Shown piece by piece: positions 6,683-25,108 of a DNA stretch of 64,000 bases; the first letter of the stretch is position 1; the number at the start of each line of letters is the position of its first letter. Under the pieces are notes generated by a model, which saw nothing but the letters and a program-made list of their open reading frames with translations, did not search any database and was not told where the DNA came from. Made by a program: the position numbers and the translations under genes. Where the stretch lies: the NCBI GenBank assembly GCA_014874475.1, contig JADBJJ010000016.1:1-64000 (forward strand), given 5' to 3'. The DNA is from Chloroflexota bacterium. Lineage in GTDB: Bacteria; Chloroflexota; Anaerolineae; B4-G1; DUEL01.

Positions 6683-8023
6683 CTACTTCTGGCAGAACTC
6701 CACTACCACCTCATACAGCACCCGGACGCCGAAGGCCAGGCCGTCTACGGGTATCCGTTCGTTGTGGCCGTGGATCATCTGCATAAAGTTCATCTCCGGG
6801 GGCAACTGGACCGGTGTAAAGCCATAGCAGGGGATGCCCGCCCGCGCCAGGTGCTTGGCGTCCGTCCCGCTGGTGACCATCATCGGAACCACGGCCACTG
6901 TCTCCGGGTCGTGCCGCCGCAGCCCCTCCGCCATTGCCGCAAAGAGCGGGGTCCGATAGTCCGTCGCCACCGGCGGCGCGACGATAATGGGCTCAAACTC
7001 AAAGTGGTCCCCCACTACCGACCGTACCTCCGCCAGGAAGGAATCCAGGCTCTGCCCGGGGAGAATCCGCCCGTCCAGTTCCGCCTCCGCCTCCGACGGG
7101 ATGACGTTGGTCTTGCTTCCGGCCTGCAGGACTGTCGGCGAGACGGTGTTGTGCAGGAGCGCGTGGAAGTAATGTGCCTGCCGGGGGTCCCGAATGACCC
7201 AGCGCAGGATGAAGGGGCTCAGCGCCGGATTGAGGACGCCGCGCCATATCGCGCCGCGCAATCCGCCCAGCGCGACGGCCATCCCTTCTACCATCCCGGC
7301 CACTGCATCGGTGGCGTGGAAGGGGAGGGTGGCCCGACCCAGTTTCGCCACAGCCTCCGCCAGTTTGACCACCGCGTTGTCCGCATGGGGGACGGAACCG
7401 TGCCCGGGTGTTCCCCGGGCCCGCATCCGTACCCAGCAAATCCCCTTCTCCGCCACCTGGCAGAGGTAAATCCGCTTCCCACCCAGGCTGATGGGGAAAC
7501 CGCCGAACTCCGTCAGCGCGTATTCGGCCCGGATTTTCTCCAGATGGTGATCCACCAGATACCCGATGCCATAAAGTCCGTCAGCCTCCTCATCGGCGGT
7601 GGCTACAAAGATGACGTCCCGTTTCAGGGGGAGTTTCTGGCGGGCCAGGAGGAGCATCGTCTCCAGTTGCATCGCGGTGGCAAATTTCATGTCCAGCGCG
7701 CCGCGCCCCCAGATATAGCCATCCACCATTTCCCCGCCGAAGGGATCGCGCGCCCACTTTTCCGACTCCACTGGCACCACGTCCAGGTGGGAGAGGAGCA
7801 ACAGCGGCGGCGCTTCTCCACTGCCCCGGTAGCGGGCGATGACATTTCCCCGCCCCGGCGCCGATTCCAGCACCACCGGGTCATATCCCTCGGTGACGAG
7901 GACCTCCGCCAGATACTCTGCGGCCGGCTTTTCATTTCCCGGCGGGTTGACCGTGGGGATGCGGATAAGGGCCTGGAGATGGTGGACGGTTTCGGCAGCG
8001 AGGTCATCCCAGTTGAGGGTCAT
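6683..8023 (-). CDS. M20-family metallopeptidase (peptidase/deacylase)
   Basis: A 446-residue protein starting MTLNWDD, chosen because AGAGGAGG lies seven bases upstream; the frame is open 54 codons further but the extension looks non-coding. The di-zinc M20 motifs are present in order: LLLSHLDVVPVE (first His and Asp), WGRGALDMK (bridging Asp), ATADEEADG (catalytic Glu pair), then a dimerisation region with GTPGHGSVPH and a late SGTDAKHL His. It probably hydrolyses an N-acyl amino acid or dipeptide in the cytoplasm (carboxypeptidase, acetylornithine deacetylase or DapE-like); the substrate cannot be told. It interrupts the series of membrane glycosyltransferases and may be cotranscribed with the 8073-11405 gene, 49 bases upstream. 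Confidence 0.88.
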   Translation of the reverse strand: MTLNWDDLAAETVHHLQALIRIPTVNPPGNEKPAAEYLAEVLVTEGYDPVVLESAPGRGNVIARYRGSGEAPPLLLLSHLDVVPVESEKWARDPFGGEMVDGYIWGRGALDMKFATAMQLETMLLLARQKLPLKRDVIFVATADEEADGLYGIGYLVDHHLEKIRAEYALTEFGGFPISLGGKRIYLCQVAEKGICWVRMRARGTPGHGSVPHADNAVVKLAEAVAKLGRATLPFHATDAVAGMVEGMAVALGGLRGAIWRGVLNPALSPFILRWVIRDPRQAHYFHALLHNTVSPTVLQAGSKTNVIPSEAEAELDGRILPGQSLDSFLAEVRSVVGDHFEFEPIIVAPPVATDYRTPLFAAMAEGLRRHDPETVAVVPMMVTSGTDAKHLARAGIPCYGFTPVQLPPEMNFMQMIHGHNERIPVDGLAFGVRVLYEVVVEFCQK

Positions 8024-8072
8024 TTCAGGCCTCCTCTGCGGCGCTTCGCTGACTTCCTGCCGACTATGAGCA

Positions 8073-11000
8073 TTACGGGCGAAATACGGCGATACGGTGC
8101 GCACCCGCATCAGCGATGTAGAGAGTACCATCAGGGCCCACGGCGATGCCCATTGGCAGGACAAAGGAAGCGGGATCAAAGCCAAATTGGCCGAAACTGT
8201 AGAGGTACTCTCCCTCTGAACTGAAGACCAGCACCCGATAGTGGCCCGGGTCGGTCACGTAAACCAGACCTGCCCGGTCCACCGCCAGGTAGGGCTTCTC
8301 CTCGGCCATCGGGTTATTCCAGCCGGTGATGGGCCACTCCCGGATCGGCTTCCCCAGCGGGTCCAGCACCTGGACCCGGTAGTTCCAGGTGTCGGCGACA
8401 TAGAGGTTCCCCTCTGGGCCAGGAGCGATGCCCACCGGCTCGCTCAACTGGCCGGGCGACGAACCCGGACTTCCCCACATTCGCAGGTAGACCCCGTCGG
8501 CGGTGAAGACCTGAACCCGCTTGTTGCCGGTGTCGGTGACGTAGATGGTGCCATCGGGCGCGACGGCAATGCCGCGCGGGCCGTAGAAGGCCGCCGGCCG
8601 CAGGTCGGCTCCGTAGTTGCTGGAGAAACCCCACTGCACTATGAACTCCCCGTCTGGAGAGAATTTTTGCACCCGATGGGCCCAGAGGTCGGCCACGTAG
8701 ATGGCTCCATCGGGCCCTACGGCGACCCCCCAGGGCTCGCAGAAGGTCCCCGGCGGCGGGGTCTGCTCCGGACAACCGCCGAAATTCCCCCACGCGGTCA
8801 CCCATTGCCCGTCAGCGGTGAACTTTTGGATGCGGTGGTTGCCCGAATCGGCCACATAGATAGAGCCATCGGGCGCGACGGCGATGCCACGCGGCTTCAG
8901 GAACTGGCCCGGACCGCTCCCTTCGGAGCCCCAGGTTCGTACCGGCGAGAGCGCGCGCCACCCGGCGGCATATGGGTCTGGCGCGGCCGTCTCCTCTTCT
9001 TCCGGCGGCTTCGGCCCCAGGGAGTACTCCCAGAGCCGGTCTACCACGTCCTTGCGGATGTAAAGGCGGAAGTTCTGCCGCAGGGGCCATTTCTCCGGGA
9101 CGTGAGTCCTGCCGGTAATCTCGTCGTAAAGGCGATAGTCCATATTGTAGAAAATCCGCCAGAGAGCCAGCCGCTTCTTCCCGTCCGTCAGCCATTCCCA
9201 GAGTTTGGCCGGGGTGAGTCGCCGGTAGTCCTCCATCGGCCACCAGAGGAAGAAGTAGTCAAAGTGGTAGTAATCGTCCCCCACGTACGGCTCCACTACG
9301 CTCCATTGCTCCTGCCCGGCGATGATGACGGTCGCCAGAACCTGGTCGCGGGACGGTTTGTCCGTGTAGTACCGCGCGTTGGGGTAATTGCGCAGGTACC
9401 ATATGAAGGGCCAGGAGCCATCGGGACCGTAGGCGACGTCTATCCGGTATGGCCCTCCGGCGACGCGCAGGGAGAGTTGCTCTATCTGCTCCATTGTCGT
9501 GCGGACGTCTGGCCCCTCGTGGGCGTAGACCAGAAACTCACCGGGGCGGTCAAAGTTGACGAAGTTGAGCCGGTGGGCGATGCGAATCGTCAGCAAAGAG
9601 AGGGCCAGGAAGATGGTCAGCGCGATCAGCAGGAGTCCGTTGCGTCCGCCGACGCGTGCCCAGAAGTACGCAACCGCCCCTCCGACGCAGAGGATGCCGA
9701 CGATTCCGCCGAACAGTCGGCCGAGGTTGAGCAGGTTCTCCAGCGTGTCGGTAGCCAGAGGGCCCCGGATCGCCTGGGCGAACGTCGCCACCGCCGCAAG
9801 CAGCGCAGGCAGAAGCAGAACGACCAGCCAGCCGTGTCGCTTCCGGACTGTCTCCCAGTCCACTTCTTCTATCAGACGGCCAGCCAGCCAGCCCGAAAGC
9901 AGGGCCATGGGGAGGGTGATATGGACGACCAGCCAGGGCATCTTCTCCCCGGCGTAGGAGTAACCGAGCCAGGAGAGAAAAGACCAAACGAGGATGGACA
10001 GGATGACTAATGAGGGAATAGGGAAGGGGCCGATGATGGACATCTGGGGACGGAATACCTTCCGGATAGCGCGAATAGCCAGGAGAATGGTGGTGGCCAG
10101 GAAGCATAGGAAAGGGAGAAAGTCGTATAGGGGAAGGATGACCAGGTAGTAGAACCAGGGTTGACCGCCCCGCTGGACCTCATGCTGCTCCAACCAGTAG
10201 CCCAGAGAGCCGACCCAGCCGGAGGCGATGCCCGCGCCGTTGGTGAAGACAGTGGTGAAGAAGACCAAGAAGATGCCGGTATGAATGGCGGCGGCGACCA
10301 GCCAGCGGCGCTGGTCCCAGAGGAGGCCCAGGGCGACCGCTGCCAGAATCGTCAGCACCAGGATGACGCCGGAGTAGTAGATGGCGGGGGCGGTGTAGTC
10401 CGTGGGGTGCAACTGGGAGAGGTGGAGCCAGAAGGGGACGCTCCCCAGGTTGGGAAAGCGCTCCACCAGTCGGGCGGCCGTCTGTGCCGCGCCGTAGATG
10501 GGTAGCGGGCTCAGGAAGGGGAGGGTCAGCGTGCCGATGACGAAAACCAGGTCCAGAACGCGGAACTCGTTCCGGCGGGGCCAGATGCCGTAGGGAAGCG
10601 CAAAGGCACCGACCAGCAGGGAGAGGACAGCCAGCCCGCCCCCCAGCCTGGTCAGGAGTATAGCGGGGTCCGACTTGCCTCCCGCCAGGCCCACCGTCAG
10701 GAGAAGCAATCCTACCGCCAGCCCGATCAGCGCGCCGATGACGGCAATCTCCGCCCTCCGGGGCTCCCAGGGCCGGCTCATCGCTTGCACTATTAGCAGG
10801 CCGACCAGGAAGAGGCCGAAGATGGCAGTATAAATGAAAGCGACCTCTTTGGTGGCGAACATCAGGGAGAGCGCCGCCGCCAGGATGTAGAGGTAGCGGT
10901 CTCGGCCCTCTTCCAGATAGCGAAAGATTGCCCAGAAGGTCAGGACGGCCCAGAGCGCAGAAGGGATATCGTGTCGGATATAGCGAGAGTAGTAGGTGAT

Positions 11001-17196: not shown

Positions 17197-17967
17197 CTAA
17201 ATATAGAATTGTTCCGGGTCCACTTCTTCCCGCAGGATGCGCAATTCCTCGTCGGTAGGGGGCTCGTTCTGGCCCACGTTGGGCGGGATTATCAACTCAA
17301 AGCCGGTGTTCTCTATCACCTGCTCCACCGTGACCCCCGGATTCGTCGCCAGCAGCCGCATCCACTTGGTCTCCTCGTCAAAGTCCAGCAGGGCCAGCGT
17401 GCTGACAACGCGGTACGGGCCGGTGCCCGGCGGGAGCCCTGCTGCCTCGCGCGCGCCCGGACCGGTCAGGTAGCCGGGGGTGGTGATAAAATCCACTTTG
17501 GGGACGAAGCGGAGTTTGTCGTGGCGGATGATGATGATGGTGCGCCAGCAGAGGGAGCCGACGTCGTTGGCGCCGCCGGAGCCGGGGAGGCGGACTTTGG
17601 GCGGATGGTGCTGGGGGCCAATGATGGTGGAGTTGAGGTTGCCGTAGGGGTCTATCTGCGCGCCACCCAGGAAACCGTAGTCAATGAAGCCGCGCGCAGC
17701 CGTCTCCATAGTGTCGCAGATGCCCGAAGCAACCAGGCCCCGGTAGAAGGTGCGGCCCTCGCCGACCGCACGGGGAAGCCGCTTCAGAATGGCGCCGGTC
17801 CCGCCGAATTCAAAGACGGGGATCAGGTTCGGCGCGTGCATCTTCTGGGCCAGACTCGCGGCCAGCATAGGGATGCCCGTACCGATGAACGCCGTCACAC
17901 CGTCCGGAATCTGACGGGCCGCCAGACAAATCATCAGTTCGGTGGGGTTGTAGTTTGGGGCTGCCAT
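17197..17967 (-). CDS. CoA-transferase, beta subunit (glutaconate CoA-transferase B type)
   Basis: A 256-residue protein starting MAAPNYNP. The start is fixed by the TGATG overlap with the alpha-subunit stop; the open frame extends 48 codons upstream but that is the alpha gene. It has the class I CoA-transferase beta pattern: GIPMLAASLAQKMH, FEFGGTGAI (the Glu is a candidate for the catalytic, acyl-CoA-forming residue), GGAQIDPYGNLNSTIIG and GSGGANDVGSL. With the alpha subunit it exchanges CoA between carboxylic acids and acyl-CoA in the cytoplasm. The substrate (glutaconate, 3-oxoacid or steroid ring fragment) cannot be told from the sequence. The C-terminus has ATNPGVTVEQVIENTGFEL, typical of the family. 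Confidence 0.85.
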   Translation of the reverse strand: MAAPNYNPTELMICLAARQIPDGVTAFIGTGIPMLAASLAQKMHAPNLIPVFEFGGTGAILKRLPRAVGEGRTFYRGLVASGICDTMETAARGFIDYGFLGGAQIDPYGNLNSTIIGPQHHPPKVRLPGSGGANDVGSLCWRTIIIIRHDKLRFVPKVDFITTPGYLTGPGAREAAGLPPGTGPYRVVSTLALLDFDEETKWMRLLATNPGVTVEQVIENTGFELIIPPNVGQNEPPTDEELRILREEVDPEQFYI

Positions 17968-18941
17968 CACCGTCCCTCCACTGCTGCCTTCACGCGCTGG
18001 AGCCGCTCCCAGCCGACCAGTTCCAGGTATTCCTGGTGGTTGGCGACGCCGTAGACGTACTGGTTCAGATATGCCTGGGTCCCCTCTTCCGTCTTGGAGG
18101 CCTCCACCCACTCGCGGATAGCCTCCTCGTCCCGTTCGTACATATAGACCATTTCGCCGGGATAGGAGCCGAAGGGGGCATGGACGACCGCGTCCACCAG
18201 GTAGTAGGGGATAGTGGTCCGGTCGGGGTAGCGGCGGATTTCTTCCGTATCCACAATCTCTTCGGCGCTGATGATGAGCCGTTTGGAGGCGCGCGCCAGT
18301 TCAAAGGCAAAACCGCTGATGCCCTCAATCTGGGCGTTGCCGTAGCGGTCGGCCCGGTGGACGTGGATAAGGCCCACATCCAGGATGAGGGCCGGGATCA
18401 GGCAGACCTTCATCCCGGTAAAGGGGCATTCGGCCACTTTGGCCGCGCTGTAGCGGAAGGTGTCGGTGCCCAGCATGGAACGGACCGGGATGAAAGGGAC
18501 GCCCATAGAGGCGGCCTTGAAGCGCCAGGTGATGCCGCCGTTGGACCACTCTACGACTTTCTCCACTCGTCCGCTCTCTACCTCTCGGCGCAGGCAGTGA
18601 GAGGTGCCGTAGACCTCCAGACCGATGTAGGTGATGTCCAGAGTTTTGACCAGGTGAGCGCCCAGCCAGAGGTCCAACTCCAGTACCCCTTGCCCGGCGA
18701 CCCGGAGGTCCTTCTTGCCCTGGCGGACGACCTCCCGCGCCAGGCTCATCGGCGCGCGGACTGTGCCGTAGAGTTCGGTGCCGATGTAGCACCCGTCATA
18801 AACGAACCGGGAGATGGCTTCCTGCTCGGTCATGAGTTTATCCACCAGGCCGTGGGCCTTCTTCTCCCGGTTCCACTGGCGGAACTCGTCCAGGTCTATT
18901 GGCTGAAGCAACTCGCCCATTCCGGATTCCAGGATGCGCAT
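17967..18941 (-). CDS. CoA-transferase, alpha subunit (glutaconate CoA-transferase A type)
   Basis: A 324-residue protein with KLMTEQEAISRFVYDGCYIG at the start, then GVPFIPVRSMLGTD, HVHRADRYGNAQIEG (the CoA-transferase family I signature region) and IISAEEIVD. It pairs with the directly overlapping beta-subunit gene. The lack of any obvious amino-acid or aromatic degradation gene next to it leaves the substrate open. The next gene upstream, the TPR protein, starts at 19612 and ends at 19022, 80 bases away, and may lead the same transcript. Confidence 0.85.
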   Translation of the reverse strand: MRILESGMGELLQPIDLDEFRQWNREKKAHGLVDKLMTEQEAISRFVYDGCYIGTELYGTVRAPMSLAREVVRQGKKDLRVAGQGVLELDLWLGAHLVKTLDITYIGLEVYGTSHCLRREVESGRVEKVVEWSNGGITWRFKAASMGVPFIPVRSMLGTDTFRYSAAKVAECPFTGMKVCLIPALILDVGLIHVHRADRYGNAQIEGISGFAFELARASKRLIISAEEIVDTEEIRRYPDRTTIPYYLVDAVVHAPFGSYPGEMVYMYERDEEAIREWVEASKTEEGTQAYLNQYVYGVANHQEYLELVGWERLQRVKAAVEGR

Positions 18942-19021
18942 AGGGACCTCCCGGATGAAGGCTGGTAGAAGTATCGGGTCTCTTTATCTTCAGAACGGTC
19001 GGGACTTCTGAGCTATGGGGG

Positions 19022-19612
19022 TTATTTCTGGCCGCCTTTCTTTTTCAGTGCCTGCCGGGCTCCGTAGGCATAAATGGAGCTGGGTAGACAATCTATGGCT
19101 TCGTTGAAGCGCTGGATGGCCTCCGCCTCCCGCCCTGTGCGTTGGCAGGCCAGACCCAGGTTGTAGCAGGCGGCTGCCCTGTATTTATCCCCTAATCGTG
19201 CTTCCGGGTTTGTAACGATCGGGCGCAGGATTTGATAGGCCTCTTCTGCCCGCCCCATCTGGATCAGGGCCGCAGCCCGATTGATTCCGGCCACTTGCCG
19301 GCTGTGGAGGTCGGCTCCCAGACGCAGAGCCAGGTCGTAGAAGCGGAGGGCTCGCTCCGGTTGCCCTCGCGCGGCCACGCTGTTCCCCAGGTCTATCATC
19401 AGCCGCACGCGCGTGGTGATCAGGTAGAGCACCAGGAGGAATATGAGCGGATGAAAGGGCAGAACTAACGCCAGGAGGGCGCCCGCGCCGGTGATGAGAA
19501 GCCCCTCCACGATGAAGCGGGTGGAGAGCCCCTGGTGGCGCAGGTAAGAAAGGCCGTTAAAGCCCAGGATGTAGAGAAAACCAACCAGCAGGACCAGCAA
19601 GGATGGGTGCAT
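19022..19612 (-). CDS. Membrane-anchored TPR protein
   Basis: A 196-residue protein: two N-terminal hydrophobic helices (about residues 3-20 and 33-65), then three or four TPR-like helical pairs (GQPERALRFYDLALRLGADL, GRAEEAYQILRPIV, GREAEAIQRFNEAIDCLP) and a basic tail, KKKGGQK. TPRs bind protein partners; here they probably face the cytoplasm. It follows the second ArsA-like gene by 63 bases, with a strong hairpin between, so it may or may not belong to that operon. Confidence 0.72.
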   Translation of the reverse strand: MHPSLLVLLVGFLYILGFNGLSYLRHQGLSTRFIVEGLLITGAGALLALVLPFHPLIFLLVLYLITTRVRLMIDLGNSVAARGQPERALRFYDLALRLGADLHSRQVAGINRAAALIQMGRAEEAYQILRPIVTNPEARLGDKYRAAACYNLGLACQRTGREAEAIQRFNEAIDCLPSSIYAYGARQALKKKGGQK

Positions 19613-19675: not shown

Positions 19676-20650
19676 CTATGCGAAGAGGTAGGCGGCGGTG
19701 CGCTCCAGCATCGGCACGCCCTGTACCTCGGTCTCAAAGAGGGGTACTATGGCGCGAACGTTAGGGAAGAGCCGCCGGATTTCCTCCATATACTCCGCCT
19801 GCATAGCGATACGGTTGCGGACGAATTCCGGCGGGTTTTCTCCCGCCGCCTGCGGGTCAATCAGCATATTGACCACGACGCCGCCCACGGGGATGCCGAA
19901 CTCGTCAAACCAGTTGATGAAACGGCGAATGACCGCGATCGGCAGGGCCTCCGGCAGGGTAACGAAGAAGAAGGCTGTCTTCTCCACGTCCGTCAGCAGT
20001 TCCTTCGCGTGGGCCATCCGATCCCGGAAGCGGAGCAGGTATTCCATCAGCGGGTCCTTCTCCTGCTTTTTCTTGCTGTAGGAGAGGAGTTCCCGCAGGG
20101 TCATCGCTTCCTGCCGGCTCTGGACCATCTTGTTGACCCACATAGAGTAGACGCTGGACATCCCCAGCAGACGGCGAGCGTTGGCCGTGGGGGCAGTGTC
20201 AAAGACGTAAACCTCGTACTTGTCCTCAAACATAATGTCAATCATGTTCTCAAACATCGCCGACTCTTCAAAGGCGGGGTTCATCGTGGCGGACTCCACG
20301 AACTCGTCGGTCTTGACCCGGATGTCGGCGTATTTGAGGAACCACTCAATTTTCTCCCGAATCTCCCGCTTGGACCGCTCAATCGTATCTTTGGTGTCAA
20401 TCTCATAGGCCCAGAGGTTGGGAACATTTTCCACAGGGGTGGGTTTGCCGAAGACGTTCTGGCGCAGGAGCCCGCTCAGGGAGTGGACGGGGTTGGTGGA
20501 GGCCAAGAGGGTACGATGGCCCTGCCGGGCGAACCAGAGGGCGGCCGTCCCTGCCATCACCGTTTTGCCCACGCCACCCTTGCCGCCAAAGAAGACGTAT
20601 TTCAGTTTGGGATGCTCCTGGACGAATTGAACCATAGGCTTCTCAATCAT
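19676..20650 (-). CDS. ArsA/Get3-like ATPase, second copy
   Basis: A 324-residue P-loop ATPase of the ArsA/GET3 (SIMIBI) family. It has GKGGVGKT (signature-lysine Walker A) near residue 25, STNPVHSL (switch I) and DTAPTANARRLL (switch II), the last close to the DTAPT of true Get3/ArsA. It lacks the duplicated two-ATPase layout of arsenite pumps and no arsB is nearby, so arsenic export is unlikely. Members of this family dimerise and carry hydrophobic clients or drive ATP-dependent conformational work in the cytoplasm. The ATG overlaps the other copy's stop by four bases (ATGA), so the two subunits are probably made in equal amount. Confidence 0.85.
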   Translation of the reverse strand: MIEKPMVQFVQEHPKLKYVFFGGKGGVGKTVMAGTAALWFARQGHRTLLASTNPVHSLSGLLRQNVFGKPTPVENVPNLWAYEIDTKDTIERSKREIREKIEWFLKYADIRVKTDEFVESATMNPAFEESAMFENMIDIMFEDKYEVYVFDTAPTANARRLLGMSSVYSMWVNKMVQSRQEAMTLRELLSYSKKKQEKDPLMEYLLRFRDRMAHAKELLTDVEKTAFFFVTLPEALPIAVIRRFINWFDEFGIPVGGVVVNMLIDPQAAGENPPEFVRNRIAMQAEYMEEIRRLFPNVRAIVPLFETEVQGVPMLERTAAYLFA

Positions 20651-21648
20651 TTCGGACCTCCGAACATCGCCTCCGCCATCCGCCGGATCATCTCCAGGCC
20701 GGTGATGTCCCGCTCAAACTCCGGGATGTAGGCCAGTACTTGATTGCCGAAGCGCTGGCGAATCCCCTCCAGGTACTTCCGTTGCATCTGTATGCGGTGG
20801 CGCAGGTATTCCGGAATCTGCTGTTGCTCCAGTTCCGTCGGGATCACCCGGTTGACGATGTAGCCGGAAATCGGGACCTGGAATTTGGCAAAGAGCTCGG
20901 CAGCCTTGACTGTATCCAGGATGATCATCTCCTCGGGCACCAGGACGAAGAAGAAGGCGGTTTTCTGCTTGTCGGTCAGGATGCTGGAGGAGGTGTTGAT
21001 GCGGTAGCGGATGTCCTGCAATTCGGCCAGGATTTTATCCTCTTCCAGTTCTTCGTCCCGGCGCATCAGCGCGGCCACCTGGGCGTACTCCTGCATCTCC
21101 TCCCGGAGTTTGGTGATTTTCCCGATCCACTGGTCGTAGACGCTGGCCATGCTCAGGTAGTAGAGCGCGTGGCCCAGGGGGACCAGGTCGTAGATGTAAT
21201 AGTCGTAATCGCCGCTGACGATGATATCCACCACCTGGTCAAAGATGGCGCTCTCCTCCATAGCCGGCTCGGCGGCGGCGGCCTGGATGTAGTCCTCAAT
21301 CTCGTCCGGCACTTTCTCTAGGCCGTACATGTTCAGGATTTTCTGCCGGATTTCGTCCTGGTACTCCCGGATGCGCTGGTCGGCGTCTATCTCCTGGGCG
21401 AAGAGCCCGGGGATAATTTCCACGGCGCCCTTGCCGAAGATGTCCTGCTGGAAAATATCGGAAAGGGAAGCCTGAGGGTCTACAGAGAAGACCAGGACCT
21501 TGTAACCCTGCTGGGCGAGCCAGTACGCGGTGGCGGCGGAGAAAGTGGTTTTGCCCAGTCCGCCCTTGCCGCCAAACATTATGTAGCGGCGCTCCGGATG
21601 CTGTTGGAAGACTTCTGCGAGGGACAAGTTGACCTCCTTAATTAACAA
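20647..21648 (-). CDS. ArsA/Get3-like ATPase, first copy (divergent switch II)
   Basis: A 333-residue ATPase. FGGKGGLGKTTF is the signature-lysine Walker A and SVDPQASLSDIF is switch I. Switch II is DLVPLGHALYYL, where DTAPTGHTLRLL is usual, so the canonical Thr-Ala is lost though the Asp, Pro and Gly-His remain. The copies share layout, including a KQKTAFFFV-type strand, a LPEALPI- or VPEEMII-type segment and PISGYIVNRVI, but are clearly diverged, which suggests a heterodimer. The first ATG is 33 bases downstream of the small GDLLGIP protein's stop. See findings for the proposed system. Confidence 0.85.
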   Translation of the reverse strand: MLIKEVNLSLAEVFQQHPERRYIMFGGKGGLGKTTFSAATAYWLAQQGYKVLVFSVDPQASLSDIFQQDIFGKGAVEIIPGLFAQEIDADQRIREYQDEIRQKILNMYGLEKVPDEIEDYIQAAAAEPAMEESAIFDQVVDIIVSGDYDYYIYDLVPLGHALYYLSMASVYDQWIGKITKLREEMQEYAQVAALMRRDEELEEDKILAELQDIRYRINTSSSILTDKQKTAFFFVLVPEEMIILDTVKAAELFAKFQVPISGYIVNRVIPTELEQQQIPEYLRHRIQMQRKYLEGIRQRFGNQVLAYIPEFERDITGLEMIRRMAEAMFGGPK

Positions 21649-21681: not shown

Positions 21682-21954
21682 CTATGCCAAGGCGTCAGTC
21701 AGGTCGCGCTCTCGCAGCATGCGGCGCTTCCAGGTGGCGATCTGCGGAACGACGTAGGGGAGCAGTCGCAGGGAGTAGTAGGGTGGCAGGATGGGGATGC
21801 CCAGCAGGTCGCCCATAGTGACCAGGATGAAGAGGTGCTCCATGCTCCCGCGCGTCTTCAGGGCAAAGCGGGTCATATCGTGCCCGGCCATGCCGTAGAG
21901 GACACTTTTGACGCTATCCAGAAAGTTTTGCCATTTGCTTCTCTGCTCGGACAT
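21682..21954 (-). CDS. Small GDLLGIP-motif protein, paralogue 1
   Basis: A 90-residue protein starting MSEQRSKWQ after GGGGGTG; an ATG at 22023 gives a longer frame without a ribosome site. It has a charged N-terminal half with LYGM, then FILVTMGDLLGIPILPPYY and RLLPYVVP, then WKRRMLRERDL. The hydrophobic stretch of about 28 residues with a central GDLLGIP turn may insert into or lie on a membrane, or be bound by the ATPases. It closely matches the 22147-22464 product, so the two arose by duplication. I cannot assign a family. Its position directly before two ArsA-like ATPases links it to their function. Confidence 0.75.
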   Translation of the reverse strand: MSEQRSKWQNFLDSVKSVLYGMAGHDMTRFALKTRGSMEHLFILVTMGDLLGIPILPPYYSLRLLPYVVPQIATWKRRMLRERDLTDALA

Positions 21955-22146
21955 TTTGGTACACCCCCTAAAAAGTGTTGGAATGATGCAAGTCCGCCAT
22001 ACGGGGACTTCAAGAGCCGCCACACAGACATCATAGCATCGCCGGGACAGGAAATCTTCCCCGTCCTCTTCGGTGATTCCGAAAGCCCTTACATCTGCCA
22101 GACTGATGCTGCAGGGGACGACGGGTGTTCTGCGAAAATTATACTC

Positions 22147-22464
22147 CTATCCAATCTCCTGGTCAAATAACTCGCAAATATCCCGCTCCCGAAGCATACA
22201 GCGGCGCCAGGCTTCAATGCGGGGAACCATATACGGTAGCAGGCGCATCGTGTAGTACGGCGTCAGGATGGGGATGCCCAGCAGGTCGCCGAAGACGATG
22301 AGGGTGAAGGCGCGCTCCACTTCCCCGCGCGCTTTCCGCAGTTCCAGATTCCAGTCGTAGAGGGTCATCCCGTAGAGGATGTCCCGCAGGGTGCAGCCCG
22401 CCGCGCGCAGGCGGCATTCCAATATCTCCAGCAGTTGCCGGTATCTCTCTTCCCGCTGGCTCAT
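22147..22464 (-). CDS. Small GDLLGIP-motif protein, paralogue 2
   Basis: A 105-residue protein starting MSQREERYRQ, set by the ATGA overlap with the thioredoxin-like gene's stop. LYGM is followed by FTLIVFGDLLGIPILTPYY, RLLPYMVP and WRRCMLRERDI, a near-copy of paralogue 1. The N-terminal 35 residues differ, are helical and charged, and contain two Cys. About 190 bases separate it from paralogue 1; no gene is seen in that gap. Function unknown. The conserved C-terminal half is presumably the part recognised by partner proteins. Confidence 0.75.
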   Translation of the reverse strand: MSQREERYRQLLEILECRLRAAGCTLRDILYGMTLYDWNLELRKARGEVERAFTLIVFGDLLGIPILTPYYTMRLLPYMVPRIEAWRRCMLRERDICELFDQEIG

Positions 22465-22964: not shown

Positions 22965-24707
22965 TTACCGGCGGGCCTTCGCCAGTTCGGCCCGGTAGCG
23001 CAGGATGGCCCTGATACCATCCACCACCAGGATGACGGCCAGCACCACCAGGATCAGGGCGAGGGTACCGATGGTCACCTGGGCGACGACGTCTTGCCAG
23101 TCCTTTGCCTTGGGCAGTGAAATGAAGAAGGAAGAGTATGCCGACCACAGGAGGGCCGCCACGGTGGTGACGAACATAAAGGCGAAGGGCCAGAAGGTCC
23201 ACTGGTAGTTCTTGGCCCTGGACATCAGCCAGAGGGTGATAAGCAGCAGGGCCAGAGAGGCCATCAACTGGTTGGCCGCACCAAAGACGCCCCAAATCTT
23301 GAGGAAGGGCACAAACCAGATGAGGAAGACAGTGAAGAGCAAGGCGATGATGGTGCCGACATGGACGTTGCGGAGAATGGGGAAGCGGTCACCCAGAGCC
23401 TCAGCGCTGGCGACGCGCATGAAGCGGACCACCAGGTGCATGATGGTCAGCGCCATCAGGGTGAGGAAGACGGCGCCGTAGGCCACACCGAAGCCCTGGC
23501 CCAGCGCGGCATCTAGCCCCCAGTTGTTCAGAAAGACGGAGAGACCCTTAGAAAAGACCGCGGCTGCGGCGGCTGGCCCTCCGGCATCCTGATATCCCTG
23601 GAAAGAACCGAAGGCCGTGGTAGCGGCCAGGAAAGCGATGGTGGCGAAGAACATCTCCAGGAACATCGCCCCGCCGCCGACGTAGAGAGCATCCGTCTCC
23701 TTTTCCAACTGGCGGGCAGTGCCGGAGGAGGAGACCAGACTGTGCCAGCCGGAGATGGCGCCGCAGGCAATGGTCACAAAGAGCATCGGCCAGAGCGGGC
23801 CCGCCGCAGCCATAAACCCGGTGAAGGCCGGAAAGTCCCCCATCCCGGGGCGCCCGATCAGCAGCCCGATCACGCCGCCCAGAATGCCGAAGAGGACGAT
23901 CCAGAAGGCGATGTAGTTAATGGGCTGAGCCCAACGCCAGATGGGCAGGACGGCACCCAGATAGCAGAAGATGAGCACCAGCAGGCTGCCGACGAACTCG
24001 GCCTGGTTCACATCCAAGAACAGGGTAGGCGGTTCCGTCTTGCCCTCCTGGTAGCCGTAAATGGCGTTGAAGGCATTCTTTACCGCTGGCAGTGTGCCCA
24101 GCCAGATCCCGACCAGGGCAATAATGACGGTGACGACCGTGGTCAGGATGATGTCCTGCTTCCACTTGTAGGTCATCTGCCCGGCCAGGAGGCCCGCCAG
24201 AATCACAATGATGACCCCCAGAGGTACAGCTGGATTGGTGAGCAGGCTAAAGCCCACCTGGATACCGAAGGCGCCCATAATCATCAGCAGGTAAATGTAG
24301 ATGAAGGCAAGAAGGATATTGCGGGCCCGTGGGGAGATGAGGCGGTAACTGAGGGCGCCGAAGGTCTGCCCCTCTTCCCGAACGCCTATGATGATGCTGG
24401 CGTAATCCTGGACCCAGCCAATAAAGAAAACGCCCAGGATGATCCACAGGAGCGCCGGGAGCCAGCCCCACTGGACGGCGATAATCGGACCCAGAATGGG
24501 GCCGAGGGCGGCGATGGATTTGAACTGGTAGCCGAAGAGGACGTTACGGTTGGCGGGGATGAAGTCTACGCCGTCCATATACATCTTGGCGGGCGTGGCC
24601 TTGGAGGGATCGGGCTGAATCACCCTGCGGTCAATGCTCTTGGCATAAATGCCGTAGCCGACACCAATACCGATAGCGGCGAGAATCAGGACCACGATCG
24701 CGTTCAT
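22965..24707 (-). CDS. cstA: Carbon starvation protein CstA, peptide/pyruvate transporter family
   Basis: A 580-residue integral membrane protein starting MNAIVVLILA after AGGAGGAAAAGG; an upstream ATG at 24737 lacks such a site. It has the CstA hallmarks: AKMYMDGVDFIPANRNVLFG, HFKSIAA-like GYQFKSIAALGPILGPIIAV, GALSYRL, CGAISGWHSLVSSSGTARQ and FGAANQLMASLALLL. It has about 16 membrane helices. Relatives import peptides or pyruvate under carbon limitation. The length is between that of short and long (E. coli, about 700) members. No CstA-type response regulator lies next to it. The upstream region carries a MITE-like element. Confidence 0.92.
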   Translation of the reverse strand: MNAIVVLILAAIGIGVGYGIYAKSIDRRVIQPDPSKATPAKMYMDGVDFIPANRNVLFGYQFKSIAALGPILGPIIAVQWGWLPALLWIILGVFFIGWVQDYASIIIGVREEGQTFGALSYRLISPRARNILLAFIYIYLLMIMGAFGIQVGFSLLTNPAVPLGVIIVILAGLLAGQMTYKWKQDIILTTVVTVIIALVGIWLGTLPAVKNAFNAIYGYQEGKTEPPTLFLDVNQAEFVGSLLVLIFCYLGAVLPIWRWAQPINYIAFWIVLFGILGGVIGLLIGRPGMGDFPAFTGFMAAAGPLWPMLFVTIACGAISGWHSLVSSSGTARQLEKETDALYVGGGAMFLEMFFATIAFLAATTAFGSFQGYQDAGGPAAAAAVFSKGLSVFLNNWGLDAALGQGFGVAYGAVFLTLMALTIMHLVVRFMRVASAEALGDRFPILRNVHVGTIIALLFTVFLIWFVPFLKIWGVFGAANQLMASLALLLITLWLMSRAKNYQWTFWPFAFMFVTTVAALLWSAYSSFFISLPKAKDWQDVVAQVTIGTLALILVVLAVILVVDGIRAILRYRAELAKARR

Positions 24708-25108
24708 CCTTTTCCTCCTGAGAAAATTGGGGAACAATGGTAGATAATAAACGAAAGGCGGACGAACGGTTGAAGAGTACCTGATGCGAAACCCCGAATC
24801 ACCTCCTTCTGGCTGGTATAAGGGGAATTATGGTTAGGACTTACGCAGTTGAAACCTTGACTGCCCGTATGTGCAGACCCTTGATGCTATCAAGCACCAG
24901 ATATGGCGGTTTCACGCGCCAACTGCGTAACTCCTATATGGTAATTTTACCATAAGCGGCCTGAGTTGACAACTTCTTTCCAGCCGATCCGCGCAGCCTT
25001 GAACAGCGCTGCCTGCGCGCGTGGACTTCTGGCTGAGATTCTACTCCTTACTTCCAGCCCTTCCTTCGGGTCTGGAGCAACCAGCGGATTGTACTTCATC
25101 GTTTCTGG
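24708..25108. other. Intergenic region upstream of cstA
   Basis: No gene seen. It holds a 98-bp MITE-like element (separate entry). The cstA side (24710-24830) includes an AGAAGGAGGTGA-like sequence near 24800 with no start codon at the right distance, possibly a remnant. The far side (24935-25108) holds nothing recognisable. Confidence 0.4.
24837..24934. mobile_element. MITE-like element with 15-bp terminal inverted repeats
   Basis: The left end GGACTTACGCAGTTG (24837-24851) and right end (24920-24934) are inverted copies with 14 of 15 matches. TA lies on both outer sides (24835-24836 and 24935-24936), as expected for a TA target duplication. Further pairing (GAAACC/GGTTTC) continues inward. 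At 98 bp it has no coding capacity. GGACTTACGCA-type ends occur in several IS families; the parent transposase is not in the window except possibly the IS630-type fragment at 1-122, whose ends are not visible. Confidence 0.55.

Follow-up and report, generated by a model that had tools for sequence, protein, structure and literature searches.

Tandem CstX-family proteins encoded with CstA and two ArsA-type ATPases that carry complementary motif changes in Chloroflexota

Between a transporter gene and the genes for two ATPases, the window (the whole 64,000-nucleotide stretch of Chloroflexota DNA analyzed here) encodes two small proteins, small A and small B, whose resemblance is concentrated in one hydrophobic stretch. 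Does that stretch anchor the proteins in the membrane, or is it a surface by which they dock onto their neighbors? The small proteins belong to an accessory family already proposed for CstA working with ArsA, and in that sense they are ordinary in kind; how they act is a proposal, which we set out below. What is mainly new here is the pair of ATPases, whose active-site motifs are damaged in complementary ways.

Table 1. Features of the cassette in the window and orphan copies of the small gene elsewhere in Chloroflexota
Feature	Position	Strand	Remark
Small A (CstX-like, 90 aa)	21682..21954	-	Evolves slowly; immediately upstream of arsA-1
Small B (CstX-like, 105 aa)	22147..22464	-	4-base overlap with the end of the thioredoxin-fold gene
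ArsA-1, single-domain ArsA/Get3 ATPase	20647..21648	-	
ArsA-2, single-domain ArsA/Get3 ATPase	19676..20650	-	
Thioredoxin-fold protein, 122 aa	22461..22829	-	CLAC (CxxC)
CstA, carbon-starvation/pyruvate-peptide transporter homologue	22965..24737	-	PF02554
Putative sigma-70-like promoter, TTGACC-17-TATAAT	22138..22166	-	Consensus match and conservation only
Orphan third copy	L041:8003-8275		Neither cstA nor ArsA pair on fetched stretch
Orphan third copy	L042:9173-9400		Neither cstA nor ArsA pair on fetched stretch
Orphan third copy	L045:9688-9987		Neither cstA nor ArsA pair on fetched stretch
Orphan third copy	L048:7871-8137		Neither cstA nor ArsA pair on fetched stretch
Orphan third copy	L050:7716-7946		Neither cstA nor ArsA pair on fetched stretch
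Orphan third copy	L052:5420-5650		Neither cstA nor ArsA pair on fetched stretch

Two tandem paralogues of the CstX family

The cassette is transcribed in the order cstA, thioredoxin-fold gene, small B, small A, arsA-1, arsA-2 (Table 1). The mechanical open reading frames of small A and small B are longer, with starts at 22023 and 22668, and homologues point to 21954 and 22464 as the starts. Small B and small A lie 192 bases apart in the window and about 40 apart in the homologous locus L004. Some 1.6 kb separates them in L002 (7316-8922), where an ORF within the gap (7684-8547) looks phospholipase D-like by eye. Beyond arsA-2, positions 17197-19612 of the window encode a TPR membrane protein and a two-subunit CoA-transferase, an order kept in L001 and L003 and not phylum-wide.

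Small A and small B are tandem paralogues: a single pairwise comparison (E 7e-30) finds 43% of 98 aligned columns identical. The motifs that a preliminary description of this DNA had picked out, LYGM, GDLLGIPIL, PYY, RLLPY, VP, and RERD, are all present in both proteins, and the alignment bears out its statement that the N-terminal parts differ. The hydrophobic stretch is, as it had also claimed, the best conserved part: across 75 homologues its mean column entropy is the lowest at 0.90 bit, compared with 1.69 bit between YGM and the hydrophobic part, 1.54 bit in the C-terminal part, and 2.73 bit at the N-terminus. That description left out the genes for CstA and the thioredoxin-fold protein, which form part of this cassette.

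A profile search, the check that this description had proposed, pointed to a family. Pfam returned no significant match for small A or small B, and NCBIfam NF041419, "cory-CC-star," matched both (E 5e-8 and 7e-10) at 32.7 and 38.7 bits, short of the curated 80-bit cutoff. In Cytobacillus spongiae, a protein annotated as "cory-CC-star protein" is encoded between CstA and a single ArsA; it aligns with the window proteins along the hydrophobic segment and ends in RCC. Small A ends in DALA and small B in QEIG, so both are without the C-terminal CC, a trait of NF041419 suggested by its name and by its Cytobacillus member. On the combined grounds of operon, size, and NF041419, we assign the two proteins to the CstX (cory-CC-star) family.

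Castillo and Saier described CstX in 2010 as proteins of about 90 aa with one transmembrane segment, encoded and co-evolving with CstA and single-domain ArsA, and proposed that CstX couples CstA transport with ArsA ATP hydrolysis; in a few organisms they already recorded CstX paralogues in pairs and two ArsA genes side by side (PMC2963123). Our literature search returned only that paper for CstX with ArsA and nothing on cory-CC-star, and our searches turned up no CstX function or structure. No plasmid match was found with small A and no relative in viral contigs with a mixed alignment; among solved structures, small B had only chance-level matches and CstA none.

A tree of the small proteins, built on 96 columns and with long branches, falls into two groups (99/99 each). 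One unites the copies adjoining arsA-1 with the usual upstream copy, and the other joins the window's small B with third or orphan copies. This suggests that the upstream copy in the window differs from the ordinary one, its grouping with the orphans being provisional.

Linkage to CstA and ArsA across the phylum

Counting a small protein at E up to 1e-4, we found one in 37 of 301 Chloroflexota genomes, CstA in 38, and both in 35 (Fisher p=8e-40). In 31 of these 35, cstA and a small gene are at most 6 kb apart. The two genomes out of 37 that have a small protein and no CstA match are incomplete assemblies. The ArsA pair is present in 36 of the 37, and the sole exception, G137, has a contig that ends inside arsA-1. 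Near divergent CstA proteins in two genomes (G089 and G170; 31 to 32% identical to the window CstA), there is no small protein, ArsA, or thioredoxin-fold gene.

Copy numbers are less regular: two small proteins occur in 23 genomes, three in 10, and one in 2, as against two ArsA, and a strict 1:1 ratio of CstX to ArsA is unsupported by these counts. The third copy found in some lineages lies after arsA-2 or stands as an orphan among unrelated genes. CstX was stated in 2010 never to occur without cstA (PMC2963123), a statement that the orphans contradict at the operon level. Together with the below-cutoff NF041419 scores and the missing C-terminal CC, the unmatched copy numbers and the orphan copies count against an explanation of the small proteins as CstX accessories.

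Orphans with neither cstA nor arsA nearby, and the borderline hydrophobicity of the segment, would also fit a function independent of both partners. The small proteins would then be soluble helical regulators, with the segment as a buried self-dimer core and the link to cstA and arsA owed only to co-regulation in starvation. We regard this as very unlikely, given that the small proteins almost always occur together with CstA and the ArsA pair across the phylum, in orphan-carrying genomes too.

Split loci indicate closer linkage of the small genes with ArsA than with CstA, and of the thioredoxin-fold gene with CstA. In G208 and G276, the small-small-arsA1-arsA2 block lies apart from cstA and the thioredoxin-fold gene; in G192, by contrast, cstA is on another contig and the small genes have kept the thioredoxin-fold gene with them. 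Across the phylum, the small genes remain with the ArsA pair, including at loci that have no cstA beside them, and this supports a link to the ATPases. The preliminary description had suggested that the hydrophobic half might be a recognition element for those ATPases: the gene link holds phylum-wide and a CstX-ArsA-CstA link has been in print as a proposal since 2010, so this part of the idea is supported by linkage, and physical contact is what we infer from it.

These split loci also bear on a role confined to CstA, in which the small proteins would be functional analogues of YbdD that serve CstA activity or stability, with ArsA acting separately. YbdD, the small CstA partner of Escherichia coli, is required for pyruvate uptake (PMC5847655). 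In favor of the analogue reading, the YbdD profile PF04328 reaches its cutoff in 0 of the 301 Chloroflexota genomes, and both the Cytobacillus member and YbdD end in CC. However, in split loci the small genes stay with arsA rather than with cstA, and hhalign against 11 YbdD sequences detects no homology (E 0.16, probability 0.4%). The visual resemblance of GMPDYD and FFRER to GMTLYD and MLRER is thus unsupported as homology, and we consider the analogue reading unlikely.

Upstream of small A, and reaching into the 3' end of small B, lies a putative promoter that would allow small A, arsA-1, and arsA-2 to be transcribed apart from cstA, a possibility that the split loci fit. The promoter-like site is also present in L001 to L004 and absent in L006. 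Our scan found 3 sites where 2.4 were expected, so support comes from the strength and conservation of this one site, the -35 part of which sits in coding sequence that is conserved anyway.

The thioredoxin-fold gene is conserved beside cstA in many Chloroflexota. A model of its product (pLDDT 80) finds thioredoxins as its best solved matches; these are weak (E about 0.005, TM-score about 0.4 to 0.5), with no match below E 0.001, and the protein has no family match. A 95-aa hypothetical protein of Cytobacillus (L064:3591-3878) is, by eye only, a possible counterpart lacking CxxC.

The hydrophobic segment and the ArsA pair

Hydropathy places the conserved segment among soluble sequences. The best Kyte-Doolittle windows reach 1.59 in small A, 1.58 in small B, and 1.28 in the Cytobacillus protein, and the corresponding insertion scores, computed as a flat sum of biological-scale insertion values, are +7.1, +6.3, and +8.0 kcal/mol. 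By the same measure, 14 of the 15 best non-overlapping windows of CstA score -4.4 to +3.6 kcal/mol (the 15th, +7.1), and the soluble ArsA proteins reach about +8 to +9 in their best windows. With Asp, Arg, and several Pro in it as well, the stretch is unlikely to be a classical membrane anchor, and we rejected a single membrane anchor as the simplest reading on hydropathy and insertion scores. The membrane-inserting hairpin raised in the preliminary description likewise finds no support as an ordinary membrane segment (Kyte-Doolittle at most 1.59, insertion +6 to +7); the segment may form a re-entrant or partner-bound hairpin. An AlphaFold model of small A from 13 sequences is poor (pLDDT 57).

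The neighboring genes do encode ATPases, as had been described: ArsA-1 and ArsA-2 belong to the ArsA/Get3 family (PF02374, E 5e-71 and 2e-64), score 236.5 and 205.3 bits against TIGR00345, above its curated 135-bit cutoff, and have archaeal Get3 as their closest solved relatives. The P-loop is intact in each, and their switch motifs carry complementary changes. Switch I of ArsA-1 reads VDPQASLSD and keeps its Asp; that of ArsA-2 reads TNPVHSLSG, with Asn for Asp. The Asp is found in 30/30 Chloroflexota ArsA-1 rows, and the Asn (TNPV or LNPV) in 20/20 ArsA-2 rows. Switch II is altered in ArsA-1, DLVPLGHALYYL (DLVPLGHA versus canonical DTAPTGHT), and in ArsA-2 reads DTAPTANARRL (DTAPTANA versus DTAPTGHT). 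Both forms recur in every row with switch II correctly located, in a survey less complete than that of switch I, in which the pattern met another stretch or nothing in some rows. The single ArsA of Cytobacillus is canonical in both switches. From these complementary changes, we infer an asymmetric ArsA-1/ArsA-2 heterodimer, which the motifs suggest, and the conserved Asp-to-Asn change predicts one hydrolyzing site per heterodimer.

A Get3-like pair invites the thought that the small proteins are its clients: tail-anchored-like, with the ATPases carrying the segment to the membrane, where the small proteins would join CstA. The segment lies about 20 to 25 residues from the C-terminus, Get3 holds tail-anchored-type segments in a hydrophobic groove (PMC2778870), archaeal Get3 is the best solved match of both ArsA proteins, and the small genes adjoin the arsA genes. 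Yet the segment has Asp, Arg, and several Pro and scores like soluble sequence; archaeal Get3 is somewhat more hydrophobic in the helix region that follows switch II (mean Kyte-Doolittle -0.63/-0.57 versus -0.94/-0.86 in the window ATPases); and a targeting factor with one client would be unusual. We give this explanation little probability.

We think it probable, instead, that the CstX paralogues serve as accessory subunits to a secondary transporter of the CstA type, which ArsA/Get3-like ATPases assist by way of a docking segment. That CstA can need a small partner has a precedent in YbdD of E. coli (PMC5847655). The GDLLGIPILxPYYxxRLLPY segment, instead of anchoring freely in the membrane, would be an element for packing and docking, would bind the ArsA-1/ArsA-2 heterodimer, and would reach CstA, a presumed pyruvate-peptide transporter, either through that heterodimer or directly; ATP binding and hydrolysis on ArsA would gate, assemble, or energize CstA. 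A more specific version, which we offer tentatively, is an ATP-gated CstA in which an obligate, complementarily degenerate ArsA-1/ArsA-2 heterodimer holds both CstX paralogues. ArsA-2 would bind ATP and hardly hydrolyze it, in the manner of the Get3 D57N variant, and ArsA-1 would provide the switch I Asp. If true, a secondary transporter would be controlled by a Get3-fold heterodimer via a hydrophobic adaptor.

The proposal, bioinformatic in origin, that ArsA-type ATPases have a role alongside CstA dates from 2010. As a compact arrangement that hardly varies, the Chloroflexota cassette is a system in which to test it, and within it the asymmetric ArsA pair most deserves a test at the bench. 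More generally, a stretch of a small protein that looks membrane-bound may be a docking element instead.

Comparison with known systems

YbdD/YjiX (PF04328) resembles the small proteins in its size, in adjoining cstA, and in the dependence of CstA function on it in E. coli; it differs in having no hydrophobic segment and no detectable sequence homology to them, and the E. coli region that we viewed has no ArsA partner. Set against NF041419, the window proteins score below the cutoff and end without CC, but they share a homologous core (positions 13-71 of 80), and the Cytobacillus member has the same CstA and ArsA neighbors. Compared with CstX as described in 2010, their segment has poor scores for a membrane helix and the orphan copies lie away from cstA, whereas the neighborhood of cstA and single-domain arsA and the length (about 90 aa, versus 90 and 105 aa here) agree. 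The ATPases differ from Get3/TRC40 and ArsA in the absence of the switch I Asp from ArsA-2, in the altered switch II of ArsA-1, and in having no CxxC dimer clasp: both window sequences are free of cysteine and hence lack the CxxC that archaeal Get3 shows in the alignment. They are nonetheless clear members of that family, and the switch I of ArsA-2 carries the same Asp-to-Asn change as Get3 D57N, which impairs hydrolysis and not nucleotide binding (PMC6633398).
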